From: Pandoraea sputorum
GTDB lineage: Bacteria; Pseudomonadota; Gammaproteobacteria; Burkholderiales; Burkholderiaceae
Reading direction: 5' to 3'
DNA length: 64,000 nt
Assembly: GCF_000814845.2 (NCBI RefSeq)
Contig: NZ_CP010431.2
Location: 2,728,001-2,792,000, forward strand
The notes under the pieces were generated by a model that had not been told where the DNA came from, searched no databases, and saw only the letters and a list, made by a program, of their open reading frames with translations. The position numbers and the translations under genes were made by a program. Of this stretch, positions 3,726 to 41,277 are shown piece after piece. Numbering within the stretch: position 1 is the first letter of the stretch; each line of letters starts with the position of its first letter.

Positions 3726-3749
3726 CGCAGACTTGATGCGGGGCGCTGC

Positions 3750-3785: not shown

Positions 3786-3801
3786 CGGGTCGAACTTGCA
3801 A

Positions 3802-4281: not shown

Positions 4282-4304
4282 GTTGGATTACCTCACGGGT
4301 TGGG

Positions 4305-4883: not shown

Positions 4884-4893
4884 TGGGAGATGC

Positions 4894-5777: not shown

Positions 5778-5946
5778 AGCACGCGGCGTCAGCCGTCTTT
5801 CGCCTCGAGGCCGGAGCGGGGCTCGCAGGCCCTCTCCGGCAAGGCGTGCCAACTTATCCGACTGCCTCCGCAGGCTAGTGCCATCCCATCGACGGCGCTC
5901 CGTGACAAAAACGATCATGAACGAGAATAGGGGCCCGGGTACCGAA

Positions 5947-6780: not shown

Positions 6781-8041
6781 TCGATTGAAGTGCACCGGCG
6801 CGATAGTGCTGTGCCTGCTGGCACTGGTTCCGCTCGCCGCGAACGGTATATCGGGCACAGTCGTCGACGCAACGTCGCGGCGTCCCATACCGGGTGCAAC
6901 CGTTGTCGCGGGCGCGCACGTGCAGGTGAGCGCAGAAGACGGATCGTTCACGATCCCCGAAGCGGATCCGTCTGTCACAACGCTGCAGATTAAGGCCCCG
7001 GGATTTGCAAGGGTCGCGATCCCCATGGCGCAGGCGGGGGAAGGCACTATCGTTTCAATGCCGAGGCTGCGCCCTAAGGCCGTTTATCTGTCTGCTTACG
7101 GCGTCGCGAGCCGATCGCTGCTTGCCAGCGCCGTGGCTCTCACGAACACCACGGTCATCAACGCCCTCGTGATCGATATGAAGGGCGATCGCGGCGTGAC
7201 GCCATACCGGAGCCCAGCGCGAGAGCGCATCGGCGCTCAGGCGCATGTTGTGAAGGGCGCGCCGCGCGTCGCGGACCTCCCGGGATTGATCAAGTCCCTG
7301 CATGCGCGCGGCCTCTATCTCATTGCGCGAATCGTCGTTTTCAAAGACGACCCTTTGGCGCAGGCGCATCCGGAGTGGGCCGTGCGCGATGCCAGGGGCG
7401 ACGTGTGGCGAGACCGGGAGCAGTTGCGATGGCTCGATCCGACATTGCCGCTCGTCTGGTCCCACAACCTTGATCTTGCGGAAGAAGCGGCGCGTATGGG
7501 ATTCGACGAGATCCAGTTCGACTATCTGCGATTTCCGGATACGTCAGGTCTGCAATTTCATGAGCCCAACACAGAGGCCAATCGGGTGGCGGCCATCACC
7601 GGCTTTCTCGACGCCGCGCGCGAGCGCCTGGTGCGCTACAACGTTTACACCTCCGCCGATATCTTCGGCTACGTGTGCTGGAACCTGAACGATACCGAAA
7701 TCGGGCAACGGATCGAGACGTTCGGTGCCCGCGTGGATTACATCTCCCCCATGCTTTACCCCTCAGGGTTCGCGTGGGGACTTCCCGGGTGCCGCAAGCC
7801 GACTGAACATGCCGGTGAGATCGTCGAGCGCTCGCTGGGCGAAGCCATTCGGCGCTCTGGATTGCCGGGCGTCAGATTCCGGCCATGGTTGCAGGCATTT
7901 CGAGATTACGCCTTCGATCATCGAACGTTCGGTGCGGCGGAAATCCAGGCACAGATCAGGGCGGCCGAGTCGGAGCAAACCGACGGCTGGATGCTGTGGA
8001 ATCCCAGAAATCAATACGATCCCGCCACGTTGCCGCGGTAG
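6773..8041 (+). CDS. putative exported glycoside hydrolase (DUF4015/PF13200-type barrel)
   Basis: 422 residues. A hydrophobic signal sequence ends near residue 23. A carboxypeptidase-regulatory-like beta domain follows (about 25-90: SGTVVDATSRRPIPGATV). The rest is a glycosyl-hydrolase-like TIM barrel of the DUF4015 type with the hallmark GFDEIQFDYLRFP and the end motif WMLWNPRNQYDP. Substrate is unknown. Its coupling to a NodB deacetylase recalls PgaB, where the two activities are fused in one chain for poly-GlcNAc processing. Confidence 0.85.
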   Translation: MINRLKCTGAIVLCLLALVPLAANGISGTVVDATSRRPIPGATVVAGAHVQVSAEDGSFTIPEADPSVTTLQIKAPGFARVAIPMAQAGEGTIVSMPRLRPKAVYLSAYGVASRSLLASAVALTNTTVINALVIDMKGDRGVTPYRSPARERIGAQAHVVKGAPRVADLPGLIKSLHARGLYLIARIVVFKDDPLAQAHPEWAVRDARGDVWRDREQLRWLDPTLPLVWSHNLDLAEEAARMGFDEIQFDYLRFPDTSGLQFHEPNTEANRVAAITGFLDAARERLVRYNVYTSADIFGYVCWNLNDTEIGQRIETFGARVDYISPMLYPSGFAWGLPGCRKPTEHAGEIVERSLGEAIRRSGLPGVRFRPWLQAFRDYAFDHRTFGAAEIQAQIRAAESEQTDGWMLWNPRNQYDPATLPR

Positions 8042-8243
8042 TGCTCCGCAAATGCCACTCGTTCATTTTCGGTAGAACGACACGTGGCGCGCACAGAATT
8101 TGATTCAGGCCAAAGCGCGGGCGTCCCGAATGACTACCGTTAACGTGTCGATCGTTCCATCTGAGTTGCAGCAACGACGCTTTCACGCACCGGGGCGACG
8201 GTCGGTTGTGCGCAAACGCGTATCCGCTATTTTCAGGAGCTGC

Positions 8244-8750
8244 ATGATGAAAGTCAGAGCCCGGTCGGCAATGGTTCGACCTGTGAGGTGGGATCGCTTT
8301 CCGGAAGCGGATATTCCGGACAGCTACAAGCAACCCGACTTAGCACCCGCCCTTGCTGTTTGCCCGGGCTGCCATGCCGTCTATCTGCGAGGGCGCTGGC
8401 AATGGCGTGCAATACCGCCTGGGGCGGCATCGGTGACCTGTTCCGCGTGTCATCGCATCGCAGACAACATGCCCGCCGCGCGCCTCTGCCTGGAAGGTGA
8501 TTTCGAGGCAAAGCATCGGGCCGAGATTCTCGGACTTGTCCAGCATCGGGTACAACGCTTGCAACGAGAGCATGCGATGGATCGCGTCATGAATGTCGCC
8601 TCGGATGAGACCGGGACCGTCATTACCACGACCGGCGTGCATGCGGCACGCGATATCGGTACCGCGATTCATCGAGCCTACGGCGGAAAGCTCCAATTCG
8701 ACTACGGGCACGGCCAATCCGAGTTGCGCGTGCGGTGGCATCGTCCCTGA
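8244..8750 (+). CDS. BCAM0308-family protein, putative zinc-ribbon
   Basis: 168 residues from ATG 8244 (CAGGAG upstream). Two Cys pairs, C40-x2-C43 (CPGC) and C66-x2-C69 (CSAC), form a likely zinc ribbon. The C-terminal half is alpha/beta and ends YGHGQSELRVRWHRP. The family is named after BCAM0308 of Burkholderia cenocepacia, which lies in the low-oxygen-activated locus; the biochemical role is unknown. A weak FNR-like half site (TTGAT-TCAG-GCCAA, 8100-8113) lies upstream. Confidence 0.82.
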   Translation: MMKVRARSAMVRPVRWDRFPEADIPDSYKQPDLAPALAVCPGCHAVYLRGRWQWRAIPPGAASVTCSACHRIADNMPAARLCLEGDFEAKHRAEILGLVQHRVQRLQREHAMDRVMNVASDETGTVITTTGVHAARDIGTAIHRAYGGKLQFDYGHGQSELRVRWHRP

Positions 8751-8802
8751 ACCGCAAGCACCCGCGCACAAGATTAGACGTCATTCACTGAGAATTCAGA
8801 CC

Positions 8803-9456
8803 ATGAACGACCTTCAACATTCTCCTTACGAAATCGTCCCCGAGGCGCCTGTGCGTCCGGCTGCGACCGGCTCCCCGGACATCATCGATCTTCCCTCGCC
8901 GGACCTGAGCGCCGGGGCCTCTCTGATGATTGCGCTTGCCCGGCGCAGAAGCACGCGGGAATATTCACCGGCTTCGTTGTCCGCCCAGCAACTCGGCGAC
9001 CTTTTGTGGGCCGCCAATGGCATTAACCGCGCGGACACCGGTGGACGCACGGCACCCTCCGCGCAGGGTGTTCACGAGATCGATATTTACGCTGCGTTGC
9101 CCGAAGGAGTGTACCGGTACGACCCCATTTCGCACGAGCTGCGGCTCAAGCATGCGGTGGATGCCCGAAACCTGACCGGGTATCAGGACTTCGTCAGCAA
9201 CGCGCCGCTGGATCTCGTTTATGTGGTGAGCCATGAACGCGCAGATCAGTTTCCTGCCGTGCAGCGGGACTCGTTTGCGGGGGTTGCCATCGGTGCAATC
9301 TCGCAGAACGTTTCGCTATACTGCGCCGCCTCGGGACTGGCGTGCGTAGTTCGCGGCTGGCTGAACCATCGTCTGCTCGCCGACGCCATGTCGCTGAACG
9401 AAAACGAAGTCCCCGTACTCGCACAGACGATCGGACACGCAGCGGTGACGCTCTGA
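8803..9456 (+). CDS. SagB/ThcOx-type nitroreductase family protein
   Basis: 217 residues. The nitroreductase FMN-binding start is clear (ARRRSTREYSPASLSAQQLGDLLWAANGINR). It continues with GGRTAPSAQGVHEIDIYAAL and the C-terminal GASGL-type helix (SLYCAASGLACVVRGW). This layout is typical of the SagB-like dehydrogenase subgroup, flavin-dependent oxidoreductases best known from azole-peptide clusters. No cyclodehydratase or precursor peptide is nearby, so a stand-alone reductase is more likely. It is convergent with the rhomboid gene. Confidence 0.85.
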   Translation: MNDLQHSPYEIVPEAPVRPAATGSPDIIDLPSPDLSAGASLMIALARRRSTREYSPASLSAQQLGDLLWAANGINRADTGGRTAPSAQGVHEIDIYAALPEGVYRYDPISHELRLKHAVDARNLTGYQDFVSNAPLDLVYVVSHERADQFPAVQRDSFAGVAIGAISQNVSLYCAASGLACVVRGWLNHRLLADAMSLNENEVPVLAQTIGHAAVTL

Positions 9457-9497
9457 AGAGCGGCGAAGCGAGGACGCAGCGTGGTGAACGCTCGAAT

Positions 9498-10127
9498 TTA
9501 CCCGCCAGCATGCTGCTGGCGGTTGTGCTGCCGCCAGTACAGCATCAGGAGTGCGCTTCCCAGCATTCCCCCCACATGGGCGAAATGCGCGATTCCGTTG
9601 AGCGTCCCGGAAACGCCTAGCGCCAACTCCGCAATACCGTAGAGCGTAGCGAACAGCCAGGCTGGAAGAGGGATGGGCGGAATAAGCAGAATGACCGTCC
9701 GGCGCGGGAACAGGACGGCAAATGCGAAGAGCAGGCCAAATACCCCGCCGGAGGCTCCCACGGTCGGATACGGCGAGGGAAGGAGCACAGACGTGACCAG
9801 CAGTTGTGTCAGCCCTGCGCTGAATGCGCTGCCGACGTAAAGCGCGAGCAAGCGCATTGCGCCGATCTCGTCTTCGATATCTCTGCCAAAGAGATAAAGC
9901 CCCCACATGTTGAAGGCGAGATGTACCCATCCCGAATGAAGCAGACTGTAGGTCAGCAGTTGCCAGACGTGAAAAGGTGCGACGGGATAAAGCGTGCCAG
10001 GGGTGTGCGCCATGTCCGAGGCTGCGGACGACAGGGGCCAAAGCGCGAGCACATCGATGGCGGTGTCGCCCACGGCCAGCTGAATCAAAAACGCCACGAC
10101 GTTGATAAGGACAATGAGTTGGGTCAT
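9498..10127 (-). CDS. rhomboid family intramembrane serine protease
   Basis: 209 residues with six or seven hydrophobic helices. The catalytic serine is in GASGG (S126), and the partner histidine is H184 in HFAHVGG. The L1/TM2 motif WQLLTYSLLHSGWVHLAFNM carries the conserved H and N. The family cleaves transmembrane substrates in the inner membrane. The ATG at 10127 follows an unknown 117-residue gene by 17 bases on the same strand, so they are probably co-transcribed. Confidence 0.92.
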   Translation of the reverse strand: MTQLIVLINVVAFLIQLAVGDTAIDVLALWPLSSAASDMAHTPGTLYPVAPFHVWQLLTYSLLHSGWVHLAFNMWGLYLFGRDIEDEIGAMRLLALYVGSAFSAGLTQLLVTSVLLPSPYPTVGASGGVFGLLFAFAVLFPRRTVILLIPPIPLPAWLFATLYGIAELALGVSGTLNGIAHFAHVGGMLGSALLMLYWRQHNRQQHAGG

Positions 10128-10144
10128 GGCGATTTTCGCTTTCT

Positions 10145-10498
10145 TCAATGAAGCACCCGGGGCAACGGGATGGGGATCGGTGCCATGAGTGCAATGTCGA
10201 AGTCGGTCCCCGCCATCGCATCGATCACCCGGTGCGCATGCGCGACAGCGACCTGAATGGCGCGATACGGGTCCGTATCCAGACAATTGCTCAGCCGAAT
10301 ATGAATGACGACGCCTTCCGATGCAACGGCTTCATTGCGTTCCCCCGGATCGTCGGTGTCCCCGACGCTAACACCACGCAAGACAGCGATGGGCACATAG
10401 CGCCGCTCATTGCTTGGAACAGAAAAGCCCCCCGGACCGACAAGTTTTGCCTGTGCCTCGATCTCGAAGCCTTTGTATCGCTGGTGAAGGGAAGACAT
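10145..10498 (-). CDS. hypothetical protein, 117 residues
   Basis: A small soluble protein without signal peptide or membrane helix. It reads as one mixed alpha/beta domain: a basic N-terminus (MSSLHQRYKGFEIEAQAKL), then a short helix near VAVAHAHRVIDAM. No family could be assigned. GGAG precedes the ATG at good spacing, and the gene sits directly upstream of the rhomboid protease, so it is real. Confidence 0.72.
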   Translation of the reverse strand: MSSLHQRYKGFEIEAQAKLVGPGGFSVPSNERRYVPIAVLRGVSVGDTDDPGERNEAVASEGVVIHIRLSNCLDTDPYRAIQVAVAHAHRVIDAMAGTDFDIALMAPIPIPLPRVLH

Positions 10499-10884
10499 GG
10501 AATCTCCGGTAAGTCATTTGAGTGATGTGCGCGTTTGCGGTGCCGTACATCTCGCCATCGGCTATCTCAAATGTATAGGCCCGTTCATGGCGATCGCCAT
10601 GACGCATGTCAAAACCGCATGCGCACGGGGCCGATGCGCAGGGTTTCTCCTTACGCCGACATTGCGCGTTCGCGTTGGGGTGGGGTGGGGTGACAGGCCG
10701 TGAGCGTTGAGCAACATTGATTTGCGACAAGGCTCCCCGCAGACAACGTGCCAAGCTGAAACGGTCGCGGATCGTACTGTGACGCTCGCCGTTTTTTGGG
10801 CACCCACAGTGAGTCGCGCAGGCGGCTCGCTTCGGCCACGGAGGACGGTGCACAAAGGCGTAGTCAGGTTTGAGGAGCAGATCG
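10499..10884. other. intergenic region between divergent genes
   Basis: 386 bases with no convincing gene. It must hold promoters for the hypothetical/rhomboid pair (-) and for the phosphoribosyltransferase (+). An FNR-like TTGAT-TTGC-GACAA (8 of 10 consensus positions) lies at 10717-10730. A G-rich run of three GGGG tracts lies at 10677-10690. Confidence 0.45.
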
Positions 10885-11514
10885 ATGCGTCCGTTTTCCA
10901 ACAGACAAGACGCCGGACGTCAGTTGGGTCGGGCGTTGGGTCGTTACGCGGGCAAACATCCGTTGATATTAGGCGTGCCGCGAGGGGGCGTGCCCGTCGC
11001 AAGCGCCGTTGCCACCGCGCTGGGCGGCGATCTCGATCTTGTACTGGTGCGCAAACTGAGGGCTCCCGGAAATGCCGAGCTTGCGATTGGCGCCGTAGAC
11101 GAATCCGGCGAGACGTTTCTGACACCTTACGCCCGAATGGGAAACCTCAAGAGCACCTATTTGCAGCAAGAGAGGCTCGCGCAACTGGAAACGTTGAAGC
11201 GCAGACGCGCCAGTCTTACGCCGGGCCGGAAGAGCATCAGCCCGCGGGGACGCATTGCGATTGTCGTCGATGACGGGGTCGCCACGGGATCCTCCATGAT
11301 CGCTGCGTTGCAGGCTGTGCGGCAATACGCACCGGCTCGTCTCATCTGTGCGGTGCCGGTGGCGCCGTCAGACGCGCTTCGCGCGCTTGCCACGTATGCC
11401 GACGAAGTGGTGAGCCTCGCCACGCCGGATGACTTTGCCGCAGTGGGAGAGTTCTATGAGGACTTTGCTCAGGTAAGTGACGATGAGGTGTTGACATGCC
11501 TGAAGATGACTTGA
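10885..11514 (+). CDS. phosphoribosyltransferase domain protein
   Basis: 209 residues. It has a type I PRTase fold with the PRPP-binding loop VVDDGVATG (127-135) and an N-terminal GVPRGGVPVA segment. This subgroup is usually annotated as a putative phosphoribosyl transferase of unknown base specificity and is common in stress loci with Usp genes. GAGGAG lies 8 bases before ATG 10885. It is 37 bases upstream of the ribonucleotide reductase gene, so an operon is likely, hinting at nucleotide salvage feeding dNTP synthesis. Confidence 0.87.
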   Translation: MRPFSNRQDAGRQLGRALGRYAGKHPLILGVPRGGVPVASAVATALGGDLDLVLVRKLRAPGNAELAIGAVDESGETFLTPYARMGNLKSTYLQQERLAQLETLKRRRASLTPGRKSISPRGRIAIVVDDGVATGSSMIAALQAVRQYAPARLICAVPVAPSDALRALATYADEVVSLATPDDFAAVGEFYEDFAQVSDDEVLTCLKMT

Positions 11515-11551
11515 CCCGATTCCCTAATCTGCAAGGCGCGAGTTGCATGAC

Positions 11552-13357
11552 ATGAAATCGCCCCCAGCATCGGAAATCTGCAACAGCCTATTAGCGCAGC
11601 GATACTTTGCGCCAGGGGAATCGACACGCAACGACGTCTACCGCCGTGTCGCGTGCGCGCTTGCGCAGGCCGAGCAGCCCAAACACCGAGCGCATCAAGC
11701 GCGGCGCATCTACGCCAATATGCTCCGTGGAGCGATCGGTGCGGGTCGAATCATGGCCAACGCAGGGACGCTTAAATCGGCCACGATGATCAATTGCTTC
11801 GTTCATCCGATCGTGGCGCCAGATACCCAAGTTGCGCAACAGCACGACATTCTGCGCGCGATACAGAACGCCTGCCGCACACTGCGCATGGGCGGCGGCG
11901 TGGGCTACGATTTCTCGAGCGTCGCCCCATGCAACGCCAGCGTGGGCGAGGAGGGCGGTTCGACCGGAGATGTCTGTGCAGTCATCGACCGCTTCGATCT
12001 CGCCTGCCGTTCGTTGCCACTTCCCGACACACGAGGAGGTGCGCAAATGGCGGTATTGCGATGCGACCATCCTGACCTGGAGGCCTTTATCGAGGCGAAG
12101 CGCGGCAGACTGCGCTGGGCGACGTTCAACGTTTCCATCGCGGTAACCGACGCTTTCATGCACGCCGTCGAGAACGACGCCGTGTGGCAACTTCAGCACC
12201 GTGCGACGCCCGACGCGAGAACGCTGGGGCGCGGTGTACACCGACTTGTCAACGGCAACTGGTGCTACGCCACCGTACCCGCGCGTCGTTTGTGGCGCCG
12301 CATTGCCGAAGCGGCTCATGACAGTGCGGAACCCGGGCTGCTCTTCATCGACACGATTCGGCGCGCCGACGATCTGGCCGATATCGAATCGATCGCCGCG
12401 ACGAACCCATGCGGTGAACAACCATTGCCTCCATGGGGGAGCTGCGTTCTCGGCCCGATCGACCTCTCACGCAGAGTCCGGCATCCGTTCGGAGTCGGTG
12501 GCAAGCCGGCGTTCGATTTTGCGACGCTCGGCCACCTCGTTCGCACACAGGTGCGAATGCTGGACAATGCCATCGATATCACGCAATGGCCAATGACGGA
12601 GCAGTGCATCGAGGCCAGGAGCAAGCGACGCATCGGTGTGGGAGTCACCGCGCTAGGCGACGCACTGACGATGATGTGCCAGCGCTACGATTCGCAAGCG
12701 GCACGCGATCTGGCCAGCGATATCGGCCGATGCCTTCGCGATAACGCTTACATGGCCTCGGCGATGCTCGCGGGCGAGCGCGGCCCATACCCGTTGTTTC
12801 GGCTCGAGCGAACCTTGTCCGCAGGTCACTTCGCCTCTTCGCTGCCCGACGCAGTGCGCGATCTCATCGCTCGGCAGGGGTTGCGTAACAGTCACTTGCT
12901 ATCGATCGCCCCAACCGGCAGTGTCAGTCTGGCGTTCTGTTCAAATTGTTCGAGCGGCATCGAACCCGCTTTCGACTGGGTGTTTCAGCGGCGTATGCGC
13001 CTGAACGACGAACCGGCGCGGGACTATCGACTCAAGAATCACGCGTTTCTGTCCTTTCAGAGGCTATGCGGCGAGCAAACGGCATTGCCTGACTACTTTG
13101 TCACGGCTGGGCAGGTCTCGGGCAGCGATCACCTCAACATGGTGGCGGCCCTTCAACCGTTTATCGATGGCGGCATTTCCAAAACCGTCCTGCTCTCGAA
13201 ACCCACATCGGTGCAAGAGGTAGGGACCATATTTAAGCAGGCCTGGCGTGCAGGACTCAAGGGGGTGACAGTCTTCCGCCAGGATGACATCGCCGATGCG
13301 GTACTGCATACGATCCCTTCGCCGTGCGACACCCCCCGGTGTGGCGTCGCGAGTTGA
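11552..13357 (+). CDS. nrdJ: adenosylcobalamin-dependent (class II) ribonucleotide reductase
   Basis: About 601 residues. It reduces ribonucleotides to deoxyribonucleotides with a B12-generated thiyl radical, independently of oxygen. Visible features are the first redox Cys in MINCF, the radical/catalytic segment NPCGEQPL followed by GSCVLG, the phosphate/GTG-like segment SIAPTGSVSLAFCSNCSSGIEP, and a C-terminal Cys pair (CDTPRC) for re-reduction. The length fits the short NrdJ subtype. An in-frame TTG at 11543 with AAGG upstream is an alternative start. Its place among low-oxygen stress genes fits DNA precursor supply without oxygen. Confidence 0.93.
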   Translation: MKSPPASEICNSLLAQRYFAPGESTRNDVYRRVACALAQAEQPKHRAHQARRIYANMLRGAIGAGRIMANAGTLKSATMINCFVHPIVAPDTQVAQQHDILRAIQNACRTLRMGGGVGYDFSSVAPCNASVGEEGGSTGDVCAVIDRFDLACRSLPLPDTRGGAQMAVLRCDHPDLEAFIEAKRGRLRWATFNVSIAVTDAFMHAVENDAVWQLQHRATPDARTLGRGVHRLVNGNWCYATVPARRLWRRIAEAAHDSAEPGLLFIDTIRRADDLADIESIAATNPCGEQPLPPWGSCVLGPIDLSRRVRHPFGVGGKPAFDFATLGHLVRTQVRMLDNAIDITQWPMTEQCIEARSKRRIGVGVTALGDALTMMCQRYDSQAARDLASDIGRCLRDNAYMASAMLAGERGPYPLFRLERTLSAGHFASSLPDAVRDLIARQGLRNSHLLSIAPTGSVSLAFCSNCSSGIEPAFDWVFQRRMRLNDEPARDYRLKNHAFLSFQRLCGEQTALPDYFVTAGQVSGSDHLNMVAALQPFIDGGISKTVLLSKPTSVQEVGTIFKQAWRAGLKGVTVFRQDDIADAVLHTIPSPCDTPRCGVAS

Positions 13358-13394
13358 TTCGCGCGCCCCGGGGTAAGGACGGCCCCTCCTGCCA

Positions 13395-13868
13395 TCAGCG
13401 TTTCGGCGGCGTCGGGCAGTTCGCGCAAAGGTGCAGATCACCGAGATAGCCAGGAATATCCCAATGGAAATTCAATTCCGCGCTCCCCCGGGCGGGGACT
13501 CGAACGGTGCGGTGCTCGGCCATTTGTGGCATTTGCGCCGCAACGCCGTAACGCCCAGGCGGCAATTTGACGAACAGGAACGGGCCTTCGGTTCTCACTG
13601 CGAGTATCGAATGTCCGGCGGCGTCGGAGATCATCACATCCACGTCCGACAGATAGCTGCCGGACGTCGTTGCGAAGGTCATTCGCAGGTTGTATCTGGC
13701 GGCCGCCTCGCGGAATTGTTGGACTTCATCCTCACCGATGCCGCCGGTGATAAAGGGGACCTCCGACGATTTCTCGTGTGTGGTAAGGGGCGCCGATACG
13801 GCATTGTCTGCCGTCCATAGGGCAGGAAGCCAGCAAAGCAAGCAGGCTATAGCAACGAATCTGATCAT
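13395..13868 (-). CDS. exported hypothetical protein, carboxypeptidase-regulatory-like fold
   Basis: 157 residues. A signal peptide at about 1-25 (MIRFVAIACLLCWLPALW) precedes a beta-sandwich-like domain with YLSDVDVMISDAAGHSIL and LPPGRYGVAA, typical of transthyretin/carboxypeptidase-regulatory-like domains. It ends in a small Cys pair (CANC). A strong AAGGGGAA precedes the ATG at 13868. It lies 47 bases downstream of the BON gene on the same strand, so they probably form an operon. Periplasmic; function unknown. Confidence 0.75.
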   Translation of the reverse strand: MIRFVAIACLLCWLPALWTADNAVSAPLTTHEKSSEVPFITGGIGEDEVQQFREAAARYNLRMTFATTSGSYLSDVDVMISDAAGHSILAVRTEGPFLFVKLPPGRYGVAAQMPQMAEHRTVRVPARGSAELNFHWDIPGYLGDLHLCANCPTPPKR

Positions 13869-13915
13869 GGCAATTCCCCTTGGAAGCCTCATGATGCAGC
13901 GCGCCGACGGCACGC

Positions 13916-14572
13916 CTACGGGCGCCCGACGGACATTTCATCGATTACATGTCGCACGCCGGGAGCGGACCACGCGGCGTTGCACGCCATCGTCTTCTCA
14001 TCCAGAGAACTGACATTCCCGCGCAACGTGACCGTGCCGTCGGCGACGTGAACGGAGATATGCCGCGCATCTTCCTCGGCATGCCGCCTGAGCGCCGACT
14101 CAATCTTGCTGGTGATATCGGTCGGTGCCGCACGGCGCTTGATACGAATATCGTTGAAGACGGTGTTGACACCACGAAGGTGCGCGACGACCTTCTCTGC
14201 CGCTAGCATCTGGTAGCCCCAGTCGACTTCACCGGTCAGCGTAACGCACCCTTTTTCCACGGTGACTTGTACGGCACGCTCGGATAGCCCTGCGCTCCAA
14301 AGCAGTACGGTGCGCGCAGTACTCGCGATGTCGGCATCGGTGCGTCGATGCTCGTTGGGTACCGCTACCACCATTTCGACGACCACGGCCCGCACGCCTT
14401 CGACACGCTGCGTCGCCCGCTTTGTCGCGAGTTTCTCTGCGTAGCTATGCAGATGGCCCGACAGCGTGACGATACCGTCGTGGACTTGTACGCCGATGTC
14501 CGCGGCATTGATGGCAGGGTCCCACTCCAGTTCCTGCTCCACGTCCTTCTTCAACTGAAGATCGTTTTTCAT
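13916..14572 (-). CDS. BON-domain protein with three BON repeats
   Basis: 218 residues with three BON domains (about 1-68, 78-146 and 150-216), each with the pattern -V-V-DG-VTL-G-V----(K). BON domains are associated with envelope stabilisation and osmotic stress (OsmY family). Unlike OsmY, no signal peptide is visible (MKNDLQLKKDVEQEL), so it is probably cytoplasmic. The start has a near-perfect AAGGAGGT. An FNR-like box at 14662-14675 lies 90 bases upstream. Confidence 0.9.
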   Translation of the reverse strand: MKNDLQLKKDVEQELEWDPAINAADIGVQVHDGIVTLSGHLHSYAEKLATKRATQRVEGVRAVVVEMVVAVPNEHRRTDADIASTARTVLLWSAGLSERAVQVTVEKGCVTLTGEVDWGYQMLAAEKVVAHLRGVNTVFNDIRIKRRAAPTDITSKIESALRRHAEEDARHISVHVADGTVTLRGNVSSLDEKTMACNAAWSAPGVRHVIDEMSVGRP

Positions 14573-14661
14573 CCTTACCTCCTTGTTTTACCGAAGGCGG
14601 TGCGCCCCGCGTCGATGACACCGCCCCACGATTCAAGCTAATCCATCGGGGCTCGGCGGGA

Positions 14662-14675
14662 TTGACGCTGGTCAA
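14662..14675. promoter_or_regulatory. FNR/ANR-like box upstream of the BON gene
   Basis: TTGAC-GCTG-GTCAA is a perfect 5-bp inverted repeat with 4-bp spacing, 90 bases from the BON start codon. The arms are identical to those of the box before hsp20 at 5246, at almost the same distance. Confidence 0.6.
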
Positions 14676-14793
14676 TGATCCGGTTGCATGAGCCGAATTC
14701 GGTGCCCGGATTTTCGACGCCAAACAGGGGTTGGGGACGGCGGGCGGTTCCGGTGAAGTCGTGCGTTGCCGTTACCGCTTAGCCCACGGGGCG

Positions 14794-15744
14794 TCACCCA
14801 TGCGACCCGCGTACGAGCAGGACCGGTGTTCGGGCGATCTGCGCCACGCGTCCGGCGACCGTGCCCAGCATCCAACGAACGATGCCGCGTCGCCCGTGAG
14901 TACCCATTACGATCAGGTCGGCATGCCAGCGTTGCGCCTCCCGGACAATCGCGTGCGCAATATCGTCCCTTGTGCGGTCCGTTCTGATGAGCGCGGTGCT
15001 AGATCTGGATGACGTTTGGGCGAGCGTCAGTTTTGCCGCCTCAAGCGCACGAGTCCCTTCTTCCACGAATTCGTTTTCGAGAAAATCGACGGGGACAAGA
15101 TCGCTCAGGCGCACCGCGCAATCGACCACGTAGAGTGCTCGGACATGCGTGACGCTCGTGGCAAACCGCAGGCCGAAGCACATTGCCTGCGTCGCCTGCT
15201 CGCTGCCGTCAATGGCGAACAACAAGCGATTGAGCGAATGGCTGACCTTTTCTGAAGAGATTTCGGGCACGACGAGCACCGGGCAGTTTGCGAGTCGCGC
15301 CACTGGTTCTGAAACGACACCCTCGATCCAGCGCGACAAGCCATGGTGCTGATGTGTGCCGAGCACCACCAGTTCCGCGTGCCATGCGAGCGCGTCGTCG
15401 ACGAGAGCGTGCACGACGTCACCACCGTGCTGGGACAGGTCGATTGTGTGCGTTTCGACGTGAATGTCCCGCTCGGCAAAAGCGCCGGCGGCGGCGGCAA
15501 CCGCCTCGTGCGCCTTCTCCGACAGTTCTGCGCGTGCCGCATTCAGCGCTTCGCCGACGAGCGAGCCTACGGGCACATGCGTGAGCGGGTTCTCAGCGAC
15601 ACTCACGAGACGGACCGCACCCGAGGGGGCGATAACACGTCGTGCAACGGCAATAGCATGTCTTGCCTCGCCATACGGGTCGATTGCGACGAACACGCGG
15701 GCGGGTAAGTGAGGGGGTGATTTCAGGGAAGTCGGTCCGTTCAT
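14794..15744 (-). CDS. universal stress protein, tandem UspA domains
   Basis: 316 residues with two UspA domains (about 15-160 and 165-316). The second has the complete ATP loop GTHGRRGIVRWMLGT. In the first, the equivalent GTHQHHG lacks the second Gly, so probably only the C-terminal half binds nucleotide. The sequence differs clearly from the tandem Usp at 628, so it is a separate paralogue. An FNR-like box at 15885-15898 lies about 140 bases upstream. Confidence 0.9.
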   Translation of the reverse strand: MNGPTSLKSPPHLPARVFVAIDPYGEARHAIAVARRVIAPSGAVRLVSVAENPLTHVPVGSLVGEALNAARAELSEKAHEAVAAAAGAFAERDIHVETHTIDLSQHGGDVVHALVDDALAWHAELVVLGTHQHHGLSRWIEGVVSEPVARLANCPVLVVPEISSEKVSHSLNRLLFAIDGSEQATQAMCFGLRFATSVTHVRALYVVDCAVRLSDLVPVDFLENEFVEEGTRALEAAKLTLAQTSSRSSTALIRTDRTRDDIAHAIVREAQRWHADLIVMGTHGRRGIVRWMLGTVAGRVAQIARTPVLLVRGSHG

Positions 15745-15884
15745 TGTTCACCACCTTTACGAATCGGGTTGTGCCAGGGGCGCGCGATCAATGCCGAAAG
15801 CGACGTTTGAGACGCGCTCACGAACGTCACCGTCTCGCGATCCGGCCGACGGTTTCAGTTTGGACGACGCCAGCCTCCGGCAGG

Positions 15885-15898
15885 TTGATTGAGGTCAA
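15885..15898. promoter_or_regulatory. FNR/ANR-like box, usp side
   Basis: TTGAT-TGAG-GTCAA has one consensus arm and one arm with a single change. It lies about 140 bases upstream of the Usp start at 15744. Confidence 0.58.
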
Positions 15899-15967
15899 CC
15901 ATCGGGCATGCCCCATGGGCTACGGACCGATGACAAGCGCGCAATGTGACGACGCCCACATGCCTTG

Positions 15968-15981
15968 TTGACTTGCATCAA
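15968..15981. promoter_or_regulatory. FNR/ANR-like box, rightward gene side
   Basis: TTGAC-TTGC-ATCAA has one consensus arm (ATCAA) and one with a single change. It lies 104 bases before the ATG at 16085 and 83 bases from the box at 15885. Confidence 0.58.
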
Positions 15982-16084
15982 GCCTCGTGCGGTGCTCGGA
16001 ACTAGCGTTGAGACGGGTTCCCGGAGGGGGCATGAAACGGCGTCGCCAGACCGGGCCTGTGTAAAAACTGAGGAGACAAACATC

Positions 16085-16522
16085 ATGCGAAGCGAGACGA
16101 GGCATGGGCGCGTTTGCGTCTTGATTTCTGCGGTATTTGCCATGCTGGCCGGGGAAGCGGGCGCACAACCGGTAGACGGCAATTGGGGGTGTGCGCAGGG
16201 TTATGGTCCCGGCATGATGCGTGACGGGAATGCCGGCCGAATGATGGGGCAGGGCATGATGGATGGGCCAGGGGGATGCGCTCCGTGTGCCGATGCCGAT
16301 CGGTTCCCGCAGCGCGAGAAGCTCAACCTGAGCGTCGATCAGGTACGCAGCAATATGGAGTCATGGCTAAGACGAGCGGGCAACCCGCGCCTGAAGGTGG
16401 GTAAGGTGGCCGAGCGCGATGCCGATACGGTTTCCGTCGAAGTCGTGACGGTCGAAAAGAACGTGCTCGTGCAACGCTACGACGTGAACCGGCACTCCGG
16501 CTGCATCCGACCGGCGCGGTAG
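16085..16522 (+). CDS. small exported Gly/Met-rich protein, unknown function
   Basis: 145 residues. A signal peptide ends near residue 28 (MLAGEAGA-QP). A Gly/Met/Cys-rich segment follows (about 35-70, with repeated GMM/GQGMM and C-APC), then a C-terminal alpha/beta domain (EKLNLSVDQVRSNMESWLRRAG..). The Met and Cys clusters suggest metal (copper) contact, but this is inference. GAGGAG precedes the ATG by 11 bases. The upstream FNR-like box suggests co-regulation with the neighbouring stress genes. Confidence 0.78.
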   Translation: MRSETRHGRVCVLISAVFAMLAGEAGAQPVDGNWGCAQGYGPGMMRDGNAGRMMGQGMMDGPGGCAPCADADRFPQREKLNLSVDQVRSNMESWLRRAGNPRLKVGKVAERDADTVSVEVVTVEKNVLVQRYDVNRHSGCIRPAR

Positions 16523-16621
16523 TCAGCGGCATTGCCTTGGGATCGGGGCAGACGCCTTGGGCACCTTATCCCCGTGCGAAACGACAAGCGAATGTCGGAC
16601 GGCCGGGCTCAATCGTCCGCT

Positions 16622-16849
16622 TCAGCGGGATTTAGACGCTCTTTCCTTCTTCTGTCGTTTGCGCGACATATCGGAAATGAGCCACCGCGCAACCGCCTCG
16701 GGGCCGTTGATATCGCAGGAGGCAAGACGGCAATCGTCGTCAAGGTACGCAATCACCGATCCATTGACGACACGGTAGTGCCCCACGTACCGGCGACCGT
16801 TGATCTCGACTTCCACCGGCGTGCGGCTATCTGAATTGAATGGCGACAT
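16622..16849 (-). CDS. small hypothetical protein, 75 residues
   Basis: The translation has a plausible compact beta-rich core (VEVEINGRRYVGHYRVVNGSVIAYL) and a very basic tail (MSRKRQKKERASKSR). No family was recognised. There is no obvious Shine-Dalgarno sequence. Support is the protein-like composition and its location opposite DUF883, with a shared FNR-like site between them at 16929. Confidence 0.55.
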   Translation of the reverse strand: MSPFNSDSRTPVEVEINGRRYVGHYRVVNGSVIAYLDDDCRLASCDINGPEAVARWLISDMSRKRQKKERASKSR

Positions 16850-16928
16850 GATCGGGCTTGTTCCGATGTTTTTACCGCTTCACGATAGTCACGACGGCGC
16901 TCGGATTTGCACGGAAATCAGGAGATGC

Positions 16929-16942
16929 TTGATCTATGTCAT
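16929..16942. promoter_or_regulatory. FNR/ANR-like site between small gene and DUF883
   Basis: TTGAT-CTAT-GTCAT has one consensus arm, while the other differs at two positions. It lies 80 bases from the leftward 75-residue gene and 126 bases from the DUF883 gene. Confidence 0.42.
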
Positions 16943-17067
16943 CGCCGCTCGAAGTGCCCGGGTTTTGACCTGAGGCAAAGCCAACCGACGAATCGATGCC
17001 ACTATCCAAAAGGCGCCAGACAGTCCGGCGGCGACAAATGCAGTGCCAGAACTCAAAGGAGTCGAAC

Positions 17068-17442
17068 ATGAACGACACTTCGATGGAACATCGGAATCAA
17101 CGGCAGACCCTCATCAACGATGCAGATGCGCTGCTCGCGGACGTCAAAGCGCTTTTGAAGGACCTCGCCGACGAAGCAAGTCTGGAGGTGGGGCAAGCCA
17201 ATCCGTCGCTCGGTGCGCGACTGCAGAATCTAACCGCGCATCTTGAGGACTTGCGCAAGACAAGCCGCCAAACAATGTCCGAATGGGCGACGGTGACAGA
17301 TGGCTATGTGCACGCGCACCCGTGGAAAGCGCTCGCCGCGACGGCCTCGGTCGCGGCGGTGGCGGCAGCGGCGGGAGCGATCGCGGTGCCCAAGCTCGTG
17401 CGACGCCGGGCGCGTGCGACGGATGGCGACGTCCAGTTGTAA
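17068..17442 (+). CDS. DUF883 (ElaB/YqjD-like) membrane-anchored protein
   Basis: 124 residues. A soluble amphipathic helical region (about 10-85) is followed by a C-terminal hydrophobic, Ala/Gly-zipper helix (about 92-115) and the basic tail RRRARATDG. This is the ElaB/YqjD/YgaM architecture. Those proteins bind ribosomes at the inner membrane in stationary phase. CAAAGGAG lies 8 bases before the ATG at 17068. It is the last gene of the stress block before the atypical region. Confidence 0.88.
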   Translation: MNDTSMEHRNQRQTLINDADALLADVKALLKDLADEASLEVGQANPSLGARLQNLTAHLEDLRKTSRQTMSEWATVTDGYVHAHPWKALAATASVAAVAAAAGAIAVPKLVRRRARATDGDVQL

Positions 17443-18964: not shown

Positions 18965-19546
18965 TTAAAGTGCGTCAGGGCTGGACGGCCAGTGCTGTAG
19001 CGCCACATGCAGGGCCTCCAGACTGCGCCGCCAAGAGGTTTCGGCATCGGGCGCGCTATGCGCGAATGCGGTTGACAGTTCGAGCGTTGCATAGCCCATG
19101 AAAAAACTGCCGAGAAAGCGGATGGCATGGACCTGTTCGGCCTCGGGCAACGCGTAGCCACGCAGCACCGCGCGACTCAATTGCGCCAGTTGTGGGCCGG
19201 CACTGGCAGCAGCGAGTTCAGGCGCCAGTTGGTAGCGGGCGGCGGCGAAGCGGCCGGGGTGTCGATGCGCATAGTCGCGATGGACATCGGCCAGCGCCCA
19301 CAGCGCGTCCTTGCCAGCACGGCCAGCGATCGCTTCGGTGGCGGCGTCGGCAAGTTGCCGTAGAGCAAACAGAGCAATCTGGCATTTCAGCGCGTCCAGA
19401 TTTTTTACGTGGGAGTAGAGGCTGGCGAGCCGGACATTGAACCTGCGCGCCACTGCGGCGCCAGTCAGTTGTTCGAAGCCGATTTCGTCGGCCAGTTCGG
19501 CCCCGCCTTCCACGAGCCGGGCGACCGTCAATCCTGTCTTGGTCAT
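18965..19546 (-). CDS. TetR family regulator with WHG-type C-terminus
   Basis: 193 residues. The N-terminal HTH reads VARLVEGGAELADEIGFEQLTGAAVARRFNVRLASLYSHV-N. The C-terminal domain resembles the TetR WHG group (DVHRDYAHRHPGRFAAARYQ). GAGGAA precedes the ATG at 19546. It lies upstream of the esterase in one operon. Two palindromes at 19566-19600, just upstream, are probable autoregulatory operators. Confidence 0.9.
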   Translation of the reverse strand: MTKTGLTVARLVEGGAELADEIGFEQLTGAAVARRFNVRLASLYSHVKNLDALKCQIALFALRQLADAATEAIAGRAGKDALWALADVHRDYAHRHPGRFAAARYQLAPELAAASAGPQLAQLSRAVLRGYALPEAEQVHAIRFLGSFFMGYATLELSTAFAHSAPDAETSWRRSLEALHVALQHWPSSPDAL

Positions 19547-19926: not shown

Positions 19927-19954
19927 ATTTAACATAATGTACATTATGCGAATA
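19927..19954 (-). other. dif: dif-like XerCD recombination site (chromosome dimer resolution)
   Basis: On the minus strand the 28 bases read as an 11-bp XerC arm TATTCGCATAA, hexamer TGTACA, and XerD arm TTATGTTAAAT. The XerD arm is identical to that of E. coli dif. The XerC arm shares its inner seven bases, and the hexamer differs by one base (TGTATA in E. coli), giving 24 of 28 overall. Within it, CATAATGTACATTATG is a perfect palindrome. Such sites sit opposite the replication origin, where XerC and XerD resolve chromosome dimers under FtsK. No second copy was seen in the window. Confidence 0.85.
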
Positions 19955-19980
19955 TACGGTATGTATTTGGAGGTTGCGTC

Positions 19981-20052
19981 ATGACACGATTTCGGCCGAT
20001 CTCGGGTGCAACAGCCAGGATTGACATGCTTAGGAAAGCTACAAGCTCTTGA
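19981..20052 (+). CDS. tiny ORF with strong ribosome-binding site
   Basis: ATG at 19981 is preceded by TTGGAGG with 7-base spacing and opens a 23-residue frame (MTRFRPISG..., ends ATSS). The strong site suggests real translation, but the peptide matches nothing known to me. It could be a leader peptide or the 5' remnant of a gene broken by rearrangement next to dif. Confidence 0.3.
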   Translation: MTRFRPISGATARIDMLRKATSS

Positions 20053-20522: not shown

Positions 20523-23500
20523 ATGAATCACGTCTACCGCGTGGTGTGGAGCGTCGCTCTTGGCATGTATCAGGTCGCATCGGAAATTGCCTGCGGCCAT
20601 AGTGGCAAGTCACGATCGGTGGACCGTCGCCAGACACGCAAGGCGGCAGCCGCTGCGGCACTGGTCGCACTCTCAGGCGTGGTTCAGGCGGTGCCCGCGC
20701 CCTACGCGGGGATACTCACGCAGTCTGATAACAACGGGTTCGCGCTTTCTCCCGGCAACGCAATGGGGTGGTTCCCCGTATGGGACTGGAACGGTACCGA
20801 TCTGAACATCACGATGACCGGCGTCAAGACCGTGAGTTTCAACAACCTGACTGGGCAGATCCAGGTGGGTGCTGGGGCTGCAATATACGGTGGCTCAGAG
20901 GGTATTGTCATCACGGCAACTAGCCTGCTGTCGAACCTGTCGACGCTGACGAACAACGGTACCGTGTCGGGCTCGCAAACCGGCGTGACCGTGGCCGGGG
21001 CGTTGGGTTCGATTGCCAACAATGGCCTGATTTCGAATGGGCTGTTTAACGCCGCTGCCGTTCAGGTGTCGGGGACTGTCGGAACGCTGACTAACACCGG
21101 CGCCATCACCGGCGCAAGCGATCGCGGCAATGGCATTACCGTGGCACCGGCGGACCCTGCTCTGCCTGCCCTGCTCAACCGTATTGACAATACCGGTACG
21201 ATTTCCGGTGGCACGAACGGTATTAACAACGCGGGCGGGACGATCGGTACGATCTCGAACAACGTTGCCGGAACCGTAACAGGCACGATCAAGGGGCAAG
21301 TCGGCATTGTCAATACGACCAACTACCTCAACGGTACCCTCGTGGCCGGCTCGCTCGATCGGCTCGAGAACTCCGGCCTGATAACGGGAACGGACGTCGG
21401 TATTGCCAACGCGTCGACGATCGGCACGATTCACAACAATGCATCGGGTTTGATCTCGGGCACCAGCTCCTACGGGATTCGCAACGCGCTCGGCCAGATC
21501 TCCGCAATCGAGAACAGCGGCAATATCACGGGGGGCATCATCGGTGTCCAGAACCTGGCGACGATCACATCGGTCGATAACGTCGGCCAGATTTCCGGCG
21601 TATCCACCGGATTGGCCAACACTTCGCATATCAGCACATTAACCAATTCGGGCACGATTGCCGCGACCGATGTCTCGGTGGATGCGATGGGGCTGGTTAG
21701 CACCGGCCAGTTCGGCGCGCTTAGCAATAGCGGACTGATTAGCGGATTTAACGCCCTTGTGAATCAAGCGCCGGGCAATGGTGCGTCGGCTACGCTGGGC
21801 ACGCTCACGAACAGCGGCACGATTGCTGGCGCTGGTGGCACGATTTCCAGCGCAGCGCATGGCGTGGCGAATTACGGTGGCACCATCGGTACGATCAACA
21901 ACCTCGCCAGTGGCAAGATCACGGCGACCGGCACCAATCTGCCTGCCGGGGTTTACAACAGTGCTTCGGTCATCGGTGGCACGATGTACGGCGGTACGAT
22001 CAACGCGATCAACAACGCGGGTCTGATCACGGGCGATTACTACGCGATCTATAACACCGACCGTATCAATACGATTAACAACCTCGCCGGTGGCGTGATC
22101 ACGGCGTCTGGCGGCGCGATCTCGAATCAGGACCTCAACGGCAGCATCGGCCAGATCAACAACGCGGGCACCATCGGCGGCTGGATCATCAACCGCTCGG
22201 TCAACGATATGCGCATCAGTGGCGCCACCGACTCGACGTTCGGTACGCTCACGGGCGTTGGCGGCGGTGTCGGTACTATCGTGAGCACCAGCGCCGATGT
22301 GCACTTCAACGGCGGCAACCTGCTGGTCAACGACAACTTCGACCTGAACGGTACGCGTACGGCTTACAACGATGCGTCGGTGCTGCAAGTCAATCGCGCG
22401 CTTCAGGTCGCGGGTAACTATGCGCAGGCAACGGGCGCAACGCTGCAAATCGGCGTGGCAAACAACGCAGTGACGACGGGCGACATGACCACCGACAGCG
22501 GCTACGGCCGCCTGGTGGTGAGCGGCAACACCACTCTCGCCGTGGGCTCGAATGTCGCGCTGCAATCGCTAGGCTATTCGTTTGCCGCCGGGCAGCGCTA
22601 TGTGGTGATCGACACCGCCGGTACCGCCAACTACAACGCGGATTCGCTGGTGTACAAGGTCAACGGTTCGACGACGCTTGCTGCAACCGGTGCTGCCGTG
22701 ACCAACGGCACGCATCAGAATCTGGTGGTGACCCTCGCCCAAGGCTCGGGAAACAACGGTGGAACGCCGAGCGGTGGTAACGGTGGCAATAGCGGTGGCA
22801 ATAACGGCGGTAACAACGGCGGCAACAACGGTGGCAGCGAAGGCGGCAACAACGGCGGCACTACGCCGGCGTTCGACCCGCGCAGTTATGCCACCATCGC
22901 ATCCAACCCGAATGCCGTCTCGTCGCTGCGCGGGCTGCTCGGCTACACCGGCGTGAGCGACCTGCGGTTGCTAAACCTGTACAACGCGACACTGGGTTCG
23001 CTCAGCGATAACTCGACGAGTTCGGCTAACCGCGTTGGCCAGCAACTGGCACCGGTTCAGCACATCCGTGCCGCAGGTGCCGCGACGATCGACGCGTTGG
23101 GTGTGGTGAACACACACGTCAATAGCCTGCGCCTTGCACAGGCGGGCGGCACGGGCGTGGCCACGGGCGATGGCGCGTCGAATTGGGGAGTGTGGGGTGA
23201 GGCGTTTGGTGGTCACGCCAGCCAGTCGGCACGTGATGATGTCGATGGTTACAGCAGCAATTACGGCGGCCTGTTGGTCGGTGCCGACCGTGCCTTCGGC
23301 GATCACTGGCGTGCCGGTGGTGCGTTCCAGTTCTCGCGCACGGTCATCAACAACGACGGCAGCACGTCGGGCAACAACACGAGCGTGAATGGTTACGGGC
23401 TGATCGGCTATGCCACCTTCACGGGCCAGCCGTGGTACGTGAACGTATCGGGTTCGGCGGTGATGCAACGCTACAACTCGACGCGTATGGTGTCGATGCA

Positions 23501-24023
23501 AGGCTTCAACGGCGTTGCGAGCGGCAGCTCCAACGGTCAGCAATATGTGGCCAGTGCCGAGTTCGGTTATCCGCTGGCAGTCGGTCGCGCAGTAGTTACG
23601 CCGCTGGCGAACCTCACGTATAGCTATCTGAACCAGAACAGCTACACGGAAACTGGCGGCAACGGCACAGCGCTGTCGGTGAGCAGCGCGTCTGCGAGCT
23701 CGGTGCGCAGCGCGTTGGGTGCGAAGTTTGCACTGCCGTTCGATACGTCCTATGGCAGCCTGGTGCCGGAATTGAGCGTGCGTTGGGTGCACGAGTACAA
23801 CCGTACGCGTTTGGCCACCGGGGCAAGCTTCGCTGCAGACCCGATCGGCCAGACGGGCTTCACGACAGTGGGCGCGACGCCGGTGTCTGACCTGGCGGAT
23901 ATTTCGTTAGGACTCACGCTCCTGCGTGCGAACAACCTGAGCGCCTCGGTTCGCTACCAGTTGCAAGCCGGTTCGGGCTTCATCTCCCACACGGGTATCG
24001 TGCGCGTGCAACAGCGTTTCTAA
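20523..24023 (+). CDS. large autotransporter (type V secretion) outer-membrane protein
   Basis: 1166 residues. The extended signal peptide region (ESPR: MNHVYRVVWSVALGMYQVASE) is followed by a classical signal core ending near VVQAVPA. A passenger of about 60-740 is built of degenerate repeats of the TLTNNGTISG / INNAGLITG type, predicting a beta-helix. A Gly/Asn linker (NGGNNGGNNGG..., about 745-785) precedes the C-terminal beta-barrel (about 885-1166), which starts at GVWGEAFGG and ends in RVQQRF, the terminal Phe required for BamA recognition. The likely role is adhesion or biofilm. AGGGGAA precedes the ATG. Confidence 0.93.
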   Translation: MNHVYRVVWSVALGMYQVASEIACGHSGKSRSVDRRQTRKAAAAAALVALSGVVQAVPAPYAGILTQSDNNGFALSPGNAMGWFPVWDWNGTDLNITMTGVKTVSFNNLTGQIQVGAGAAIYGGSEGIVITATSLLSNLSTLTNNGTVSGSQTGVTVAGALGSIANNGLISNGLFNAAAVQVSGTVGTLTNTGAITGASDRGNGITVAPADPALPALLNRIDNTGTISGGTNGINNAGGTIGTISNNVAGTVTGTIKGQVGIVNTTNYLNGTLVAGSLDRLENSGLITGTDVGIANASTIGTIHNNASGLISGTSSYGIRNALGQISAIENSGNITGGIIGVQNLATITSVDNVGQISGVSTGLANTSHISTLTNSGTIAATDVSVDAMGLVSTGQFGALSNSGLISGFNALVNQAPGNGASATLGTLTNSGTIAGAGGTISSAAHGVANYGGTIGTINNLASGKITATGTNLPAGVYNSASVIGGTMYGGTINAINNAGLITGDYYAIYNTDRINTINNLAGGVITASGGAISNQDLNGSIGQINNAGTIGGWIINRSVNDMRISGATDSTFGTLTGVGGGVGTIVSTSADVHFNGGNLLVNDNFDLNGTRTAYNDASVLQVNRALQVAGNYAQATGATLQIGVANNAVTTGDMTTDSGYGRLVVSGNTTLAVGSNVALQSLGYSFAAGQRYVVIDTAGTANYNADSLVYKVNGSTTLAATGAAVTNGTHQNLVVTLAQGSGNNGGTPSGGNGGNSGGNNGGNNGGNNGGSEGGNNGGTTPAFDPRSYATIASNPNAVSSLRGLLGYTGVSDLRLLNLYNATLGSLSDNSTSSANRVGQQLAPVQHIRAAGAATIDALGVVNTHVNSLRLAQAGGTGVATGDGASNWGVWGEAFGGHASQSARDDVDGYSSNYGGLLVGADRAFGDHWRAGGAFQFSRTVINNDGSTSGNNTSVNGYGLIGYATFTGQPWYVNVSGSAVMQRYNSTRMVSMQGFNGVASGSSNGQQYVASAEFGYPLAVGRAVVTPLANLTYSYLNQNSYTETGGNGTALSVSSASASSVRSALGAKFALPFDTSYGSLVPELSVRWVHEYNRTRLATGASFAADPIGQTGFTTVGATPVSDLADISLGLTLLRANNLSASVRYQLQAGSGFISHTGIVRVQQRF

Positions 24024-24027
24024 CTTT

Positions 24028-24074
24028 AGGTGTTGCACCTGCGTTGACCTTTACTGGAAACAGGAGCAACACCT
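24028..24074. terminator. imperfect long stem-loop between convergent genes
   Basis: Arms 24028-24041 and 24061-24074 are complementary at 13 of 14 positions around a 19-base loop. The structure lies between the autotransporter stop and the M20 hydrolase stop and may end both transcripts. No U-tract is present. Confidence 0.5.
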
Positions 24075-24101
24075 CGCGTGTGAGAGCGTCGGCCTACCAG
24101 G

Positions 24102-40422: not shown

Positions 40423-41277
40423 ATGTCGAATACCCACGAAATCCGTCCCGGCCAGTCCATTGAACTGCTCAAGGAACTCCACATCCTGACGCGCGACGGC
40501 AAGATGAATCAGGACAGCCGACGCAAGCTCAAGCAGGTCTATCACCTGTTTCAGTTCATCGAGCCGCTGCTACAGGAAGTCAAGAACGACAATGGCCGCG
40601 TGACGCTCGTCGATCACGGTGCCGGGAAGTCCTATCTGGGCTTCATCCTTTACGATCTGTTCTTCAAGGCACTGGCTGACGATTCGCATATCTTCGGCAT
40701 CGAAACCCGTGAGGAACTCGTCAAGACCTCCACGGCGCTGGCGCAACGCCTCGGCTTTCCGGGCATGTCGTTCCTGAACCTGTCGGTCGCCGATTCGATC
40801 ACCTCCCCGGCATTGCCCGAAACGGTCGACGTCGTCACTGCACTCCATGCGTGCAATACCGCAACGGACGACGCCATCCGGTTTGCGCTCGCCAAGCAAG
40901 CCCGTCACATTGTGCTCGTGCCCTGCTGTCAGGCCGAAGTCGCCGCCGTCCTGCGCAAACACAAGGGGCAGCAACTGGCAGGCAATCCGTTGACGGAAAT
41001 CTGGCGTCACCCGTTGCACACGCGCGAATTCGGCAGCCAGGTCACCAACGTGCTGCGCTGCCTCCAGCTCGAAGCCCATGGCTATCAGGTCAACGTGACC
41101 GAACTGGTCGGCTGGGAGCACTCGATGAAGAACGAGCTGATCATCGCCCAGTACAAGGATCTGCCGCGTCGTCGTCCTGCCGAGCGTCTGGAAAGCGTGC
41201 TGGCGTCGCTGGGACTCGAAGAAATGCGTGAACGTTTCTTCACCACCGACGCGCCAGCCTCCGTCGCCGAAGCCTAA
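40423..41277 (+). CDS. class I SAM-dependent methyltransferase (PF13679-like)
   Basis: 284 residues. The SAM motif I region is VTLVDHGAGKSYLGFIL, followed by IFGIETREELV and VTALHACNTATDDAIRFAL-K-A-HIVLVPCCQ. These match the METTL25/Trm13-like methyltransferase domain, which often acts on RNA or protein. The substrate is unknown. Its stop codon overlaps that of the convergent GST gene by 4 bases. Confidence 0.84.
   Translation: MSNTHEIRPGQSIELLKELHILTRDGKMNQDSRRKLKQVYHLFQFIEPLLQEVKNDNGRVTLVDHGAGKSYLGFILYDLFFKALADDSHIFGIETREELVKTSTALAQRLGFPGMSFLNLSVADSITSPALPETVDVVTALHACNTATDDAIRFALAKQARHIVLVPCCQAEVAAVLRKHKGQQLAGNPLTEIWRHPLHTREFGSQVTNVLRCLQLEAHGYQVNVTELVGWEHSMKNELIIAQYKDLPRRRPAERLESVLASLGLEEMRERFFTTDAPASVAEA

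Follow-up and report, generated by a model that had tools for sequence, protein, structure and literature searches.

A single dif site on the Pandoraea sputorum chromosome and mobile elements that probably land at its XerC edge in the genus

A 28-base dif-like element in Pandoraea sputorum raises two questions: is it the dif site of the chromosome, and hence a marker of the replication terminus, and what has shaped the DNA on its two sides? We analyzed a window of 64 kb (the whole stretch of DNA studied here), bases 2,728,001–2,792,000 of one contig of 5,742,997 bases (5.74-Mb genome); positions below are those of the window unless a genome is named, and the features are listed in Table 1. Taken together, the sequence comparisons point, with high confidence, to a single chromosomal dif at whose XerC edge mobile elements land in the genus, with what appear to be degraded GInt ends in the window.

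Table 1. Features of the window at and around dif
Feature	Position	Strand	Basis or remark
dif site, 28 bp	19927..19954	- (read XerC to XerD)	sequence, copy number, skew, genus alignment
XerD arm of dif	19927-19937
Central hexamer of dif, TGTACA	19938-19943
XerC arm of dif	19944-19954
Probable GInt left-end remnant, overlapping the outer XerC arm	19951..20021	+	GTTGC-N30-GCAAC at 19973-20012
Second GInt-left-end-like sequence, immediately behind the stop codon of the autotransporter gene	24025..24081	+	GTTGC-N29-GCAAC at 24032-24070
TetR-like regulator gene (TetR_C_33), XerD-side neighbor of dif	18965..19546	-
Autotransporter gene (ESPR and autotransporter beta-domain), XerC-side neighbor of dif	20523..24023	+
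Methyltransferase-domain gene (Methyltransf_32), XerC-side anchor of dif	40423..41277	+	18/21 neighborhoods

The element reads ATTTAACATAATGTACATTATGCGAATA (G+C 6/28) and has the 28-bp layout expected of a chromosomal dif, two 11-bp Xer arms and a central hexamer. Its reverse complement is identical to E. coli dif at 24/28 positions, differing at positions 1, 2, 4, and 16; as the preliminary description had it, the whole XerD arm and the seven inner bases of the XerC arm agree, and the hexamer is one base off. A chance match had been called very unlikely, and the window indeed contains one match, compared with a mean of 0.03 in 100 shuffles (18 fixed bases, at most 3 mismatches). The whole genome holds one exact match and one match with 3 mismatches at 1,994,531, 0.75 Mb away; no better dif match was found on the same replicon.

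The dnaA gene is at base 535, and dif lies 47.8% of the way round from it. Cumulative G–C, proposed to invert at about 19.94 kb, peaks at 23,911, 4.0 kb from dif, and the keto (G+T) excess peaks at 21,082, 1.1 kb from dif (both in 400 contiguous kb); the median distance between dif and the skew maximum given for 161 chromosomes is 7.3 kb (PMC2731167). In sampled 20-kb pieces elsewhere, the skew is positive in 9/10 before the terminus (−0.002 in the tenth) and negative in 10/10 after it. In relatives, the left side of the 20 kb around dif has the higher G–C skew in 20/20, with a strict plus/minus change across dif in 17/20 (exceptions G002, G012, and G025). Among ten genomes with dnaA and dif on one large contig (G003, in six contigs, being dropped), dif is 46.8–49.1% from dnaA in nine, and its orientation relative to dnaA is not conserved (five each way). 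The dif of G026 (G026:C1:3541985) is 63.3% from dnaA, unlike that of the other nine.

The KOPS-like word GGGNAGGG points toward dif in 60/71 cases (800 kb sampled), ranking fifth of 56 words of equal composition, and the best break in its polarity within 400 kb falls at 37–42 or 79–81 kb (24 net of 34, vs. 22 at dif). Since four other words of equal composition orient equally well or better and the best break is elsewhere than at dif, KOPS polarity is too unspecific to serve as an extra proof of dif and adds little. The most strand-biased octamer of 31,458 scored is GCAGGGCG (95 vs. 24 toward dif; 800 kb sampled, G000:C1, the window genome), a possible KOPS-like word of the genus.

Exactly one dif is present in each of 32/32 Pandoraea genomes, with no mismatch in 27 and one in five; a match with at most 3 mismatches is found in 55/61 genomes searched, and an exact 24-mer scan of named genomes yields 22 stretches, 19 of them from Pandoraea. 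In the alignment of 30 genomes, TTTAACATAAT-NNNN-ATTATGCG is invariant except for two central columns (25/30 and 27/30), and the last three columns of the 26-base core are conserved in 27/30, 28/30, and 26/30. The genome encodes XerC and XerD, both scoring above the NCBIfam cut-offs, and two genes with an FtsK_gamma domain. The exact 22-base dif core is also seen in five IMG/VR contigs (L097–L101) with unrelated flanks.

The claim that the window spans the terminus thus holds: position, uniqueness, conservation in the genus, low G+C, and partner genes are as expected, and the element is almost certainly the single chromosomal dif. The opposite reading, a chance or non-chromosomal Xer-like sequence (plasmid pdif, phage attachment site) rather than a working dif, is largely refuted and very improbable. 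In its favor, plasmids and phages, and those five contigs, carry similar sites; against it, the element is a single copy, at the skew maximum, and occurs once in all 32 genus genomes with unrelated flanks. By analogy with the family, XerC and XerD, which FtsK would bring together, would bind the two arms when the cell divides and resolve chromosome dimers by strand exchange within TGTACA.

As a dif, the element is ordinary. Like other proteobacterial sites, it is 28 bp long, low in G+C, partly palindromic, intergenic, and close to the GC-skew maximum, with variable outer arms and flanks, and its XerC side TTCGCATAATGT is common to the listed sites of Bordetella, Thiobacillus, and Methylobacillus (PMC2731167, PMC3025954). 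It differs in that the self-complementary TGTACA makes CATAATGTACATTATG a perfect 16-bp palindrome. No description of a Pandoraea dif site was found in a literature search.

In the flanks, two causes of turnover are to be weighed: site-specific insertion at dif, and replacement without site-specific recombination, in which the 28 bp are all that selection retains while ordinary insertions and deletions exchange the rest. Both sides of dif vary, as expected under ordinary turnover, and published dif flanks are likewise variable (PMC2731167). For the immediate flanks of 30 genomes, no homology is seen in 426/435 pairs; in the other nine it breaks off where the 28-mer ends on one flank and continues along the other, and in none is it present on both sides, which argues against ordinary turnover. 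For example, G010 and G030 share 95% identity for more than 1.5 kb beyond the XerC arm and show no relation beyond the XerD arm; for G023 and G025, likeness (87%) is confined to the XerD side. With BLAST, which can span diverged DNA, two pairs are homologous on both sides of dif, G004–G028 and G025–G029.

At a larger scale, the anchor gene keeps its orientation and its place on the XerC side in 18/21 neighborhoods (the other three covered 10 kb only), at distances from dif between 0.15 kb (G011) and 37 kb (G030), with 20.5 kb in the window; a marker on the left side is 7.7 kb from dif in G027 and 42.7 kb in the window genome. In G008 (L127), the DNA 5–10 kb from dif on the XerD side is homologous, in inverted orientation, to the XerC-side flank of G001 and G024, which suggests a local inversion next to dif. 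The idea that the terminus explains acquired genes is borne out in part: species differ strongly in the genes that lie next to dif, as the range of anchor distances illustrates. For the window itself it fares less well, with no tRNA gene found in its 64 kb, the nearest Pfam integrase match of the genome about 95 kb away, and most scanned genes near dif looking metabolic, not mobile. The cluster at 1742–17442 comprises DUF4010/MgtC, nitroreductase, ribonucleotide reductase, BON, and universal stress genes, and presumably resembles a low-oxygen stress island.

Insertions with recognizable ends are seen in relatives. In both G030 and G010, a ginABCD-type island begins at the XerC end of an intact dif, with the GinA start about 0.1 kb from dif. 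An inverted repeat is followed by four genes encoding 410, 515/514, 684/772, and 158/157 amino acids (G030/G010); the first two match Pfam Phage_integrase, the third matches it below threshold only, and the fourth does not. This is the GInt layout of three integrase genes and a small fourth one, and variable cargo after the recombinases and imperfect direct repeats at the ends, the latter as seen in G010, are further points of likeness (PMC5385486). The targets differ: the text of PMC5385486 names ssb, ribonucleotide reductase, and others, whereas the Pandoraea islands are at dif. The word "dif" does not occur in the text of PMC5385486 (supplementary tables aside) or of PMC10214605, and a literature search, supplementary target tables and most subscription papers aside, found no GInt at dif. 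A PDB search with GinA gave no hits.

The end repeats were found in G010 only, TATGCGAGTCAA near dif and TTTGCGAATAAC at the far end; the far end of the G030 island was looked for and not found. The dif next to both islands is intact at 21/21 scored positions; the XerC arm has changed in its outermost bases only. Homology between G010 and G027 sets in again at +21.2 kb, and the far end found there in G010 is GGCACCAAGTTTGCGAATAAC. A far end that matches it, AGTACCAAGTTTGCGAATTAC, is seen at +6.0 kb in G005, which has no GinA left. Both far ends resemble what remains of the XerC arm, as a crossover in TGCGA would lead one to expect. The cargo includes defense genes: CBASS cyclase, E1-E2, and JAB next to ginABCD in G030 (L120 542–3782); CBASS phospholipase and cyclase, a reverse transcriptase (RT-protease type), and a GajB-like gene in G010 (L138 8987–18844, L124 937–2619). 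We consider it likely that GInts target dif in the relatives.

GinA relatives, counted at E 1e-20 in genome sets that overlap, are present in 2/32 genomes of the genus, 3/399 of the order, and 1/369 of the class, with matches in 24 of 72,556 plasmid records (10 of the 24 examined). A dif-like site (at least 19 of 21 scored positions) precedes GinA in 6/16 loci, on the same strand and at 123–277 bp, namely in G030, G010, G049, G709, and two Cupriavidus megaplasmids, C. necator pHG1 and one from C. oxalaticus; the best scores of 200 shuffles per locus are 13 to 16 of 21, and neither G049 nor G709 has another match in its genome. All six loci have GTTGC-N-GCAAC 22–23 bases after the site, and the motif is likewise placed in P. 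megapolitana, where the XerD arm is kept and the XerC arm is damaged, and in P. aeruginosa pBJ86, where another palindrome stands in place of dif. A clear full dif is absent from 10/16 loci tested, among them G033, P. koreensis, P. aromaticivorans, and P. caledonica. The candidate CGCATAA-N6-TTATGGAA at GinA on three alphaproteobacterial plasmids was rejected as a dif, its score being not clearly above shuffles, and no convincing match was found for the far island ends on pHG1 and the P. megapolitana stretch. ISNCY-family transposase genes are seen just upstream of GinA on three plasmids (L168, L169, L174), and the GinA genes of P. aromaticivorans and P. caledonica are adjoined by an ISNCY transposase; these transposases may favor such sites too.

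A second type of insert is phage-like. In G027, an exact half-dif (central hexamer and inner XerC arm, 16/16) is found at +10,461, where homology to G010 resumes, and the approximately 10.5 kb between dif and half-dif (L125) encode a PM2-type coat protein, a packaging ATPase, and a replication protein; the gene content and junction look like those of a PM2/corticovirus-like prophage with a Xer-type insertion at dif. In G213, 20 kb separate the sole full-length dif match from a half-dif adjoining a truncated GinA (G213:C1:2580140–2600419; L157, L163, L176), and the 10 kb nearest the half-dif (10 of the 20 kb scanned) contain filamentous-phage Zot, secretin, and replication (Rep) genes, an arrangement to be expected if a later phage had displaced an older GInt outward. 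Insertion in G027, and probably in G213, thus had the outcome known for Xer-exploiting elements (IMEX) such as LME-1 of Legionella (PMC9765430) and non-tailed and filamentous Vibrio prophages (PMC9966536, PMC11630473), which leave an intact dif and a modified second site; the differences are the Pandoraea hosts and, for GInts, recombinases of their own. That an element at dif brings a recombinase is no novelty as such, because integrase genes are frequent in the tailless prophages found at dif in Vibrio (PMC11630473).

Such second sites are infrequent. A second half-dif is clear in 1/16 intervals between dif and the anchor and unclear in 15/16, and none is seen to the left of dif in 21 neighborhoods; IMEX as the sole cause of flank turnover were rejected on the former count. 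A whole-28-mer scan of the 21 neighborhoods of 20 kb gave nothing convincing, the top candidate, at −151 in G030, scoring 13.6 vs. 13.1 for the shuffled best. In the window genome, neither a XerC nor a XerD half-site is found between dif and the anchor (best 5/16 mismatches). The scarcity of half-sites, in the intervals as well as to the left of dif, is what ordinary insertions and deletions would leave; nevertheless, two types of insert with matching junctions, the GInt ends of G010 and G005 and the half-dif of G027, speak against them, and we regard turnover without site-specific recombination as unlikely.

No GinA is found in the window genome at E 1e-20, and the window contains no GInt, only two sequences that resemble its left end. 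A profile of GInt left ends matches the sequence adjoining dif with E 0.0039 in 400 kb and 0.015 in 1.6 Mb, and the sequence after the autotransporter gene with E 0.0007 in 400 kb (0.0005 without G013) and 0.0028 in 1.6 Mb. In the 1.6 Mb of Pandoraea DNA, searched with a profile of 11 ends that excludes the window genome, E below 1 is seen only at dif, in G030, G010, G018, G005, G013, and the window genome, and at the second window copy; G030 and G010 also show reverse-strand self matches to the profile. The window genome and G013 are 77% alike over 99 bases next to and including dif, and G013 resembles GInt ends with E 4.5e-9 under a profile built without it.

Both sequences might instead be ordinary hairpins or a chance inverted repeat, a reading that is quite possible and somewhat short of probable. 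The bare motif GTTGC-N28..31-GCAAC occurs 9 times in 400 kb of the window genome, hence two in 64 kb are not unusual alone; the second copy, behind a stop codon, is in a possible place for a terminator, and it may be a terminator-like hairpin; and the match adjoining dif disappears if G013 is left out of the profile. Folding of the latter is no better than shuffles, with z −1.54 for the second copy. On the other side, the profile singles out only dif-adjacent ends and the second copy in the 1.6 Mb, and the motif next to dif is rightly spaced from it, as in five other genomes of the genus (6/30 vs. 6/12,000 shuffled flanks). The evidence for a GInt remnant next to dif is moderate, and, judged by these sequence matches, we lean slightly toward GInt scars for the end-like sequences of the window.

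The XerC edge of dif would thus be a landing place of mobile elements in the genus. GInt islands would bring their own recombinases and leave dif intact; phages would leave a second half-dif, like Xer-integrated elements; and in the window only degraded GInt ends appear to remain. From the sequences compared, the terminus looks like successive insertions stacked against dif, and the combination of dif-targeting GInts and layered insertions is well supported in the relatives and moderately in the window. A more complete scheme, for which we see about even chances, is that a GInt clade uses dif of chromosomes and large plasmids as its attachment site: the crossover would take place in the XerC arm, the left end would rebuild the arm, and dif would keep working; defense genes would reach the terminus; later phages would push the islands outward, with insertions recorded in order and the scars in the window representing two layers.

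The dif site provides a firm coordinate of the replication terminus for this chromosome, and the 32 genomes of the genus are a clean case of a 28-bp element retained while its surroundings are replaced. If GInts target dif harmlessly, this would explain how recombinase-bearing islands and their defense cargo reach the terminus, and, if true, competition or tolerance between GinABCD and XerCD at one site would become simply testable.
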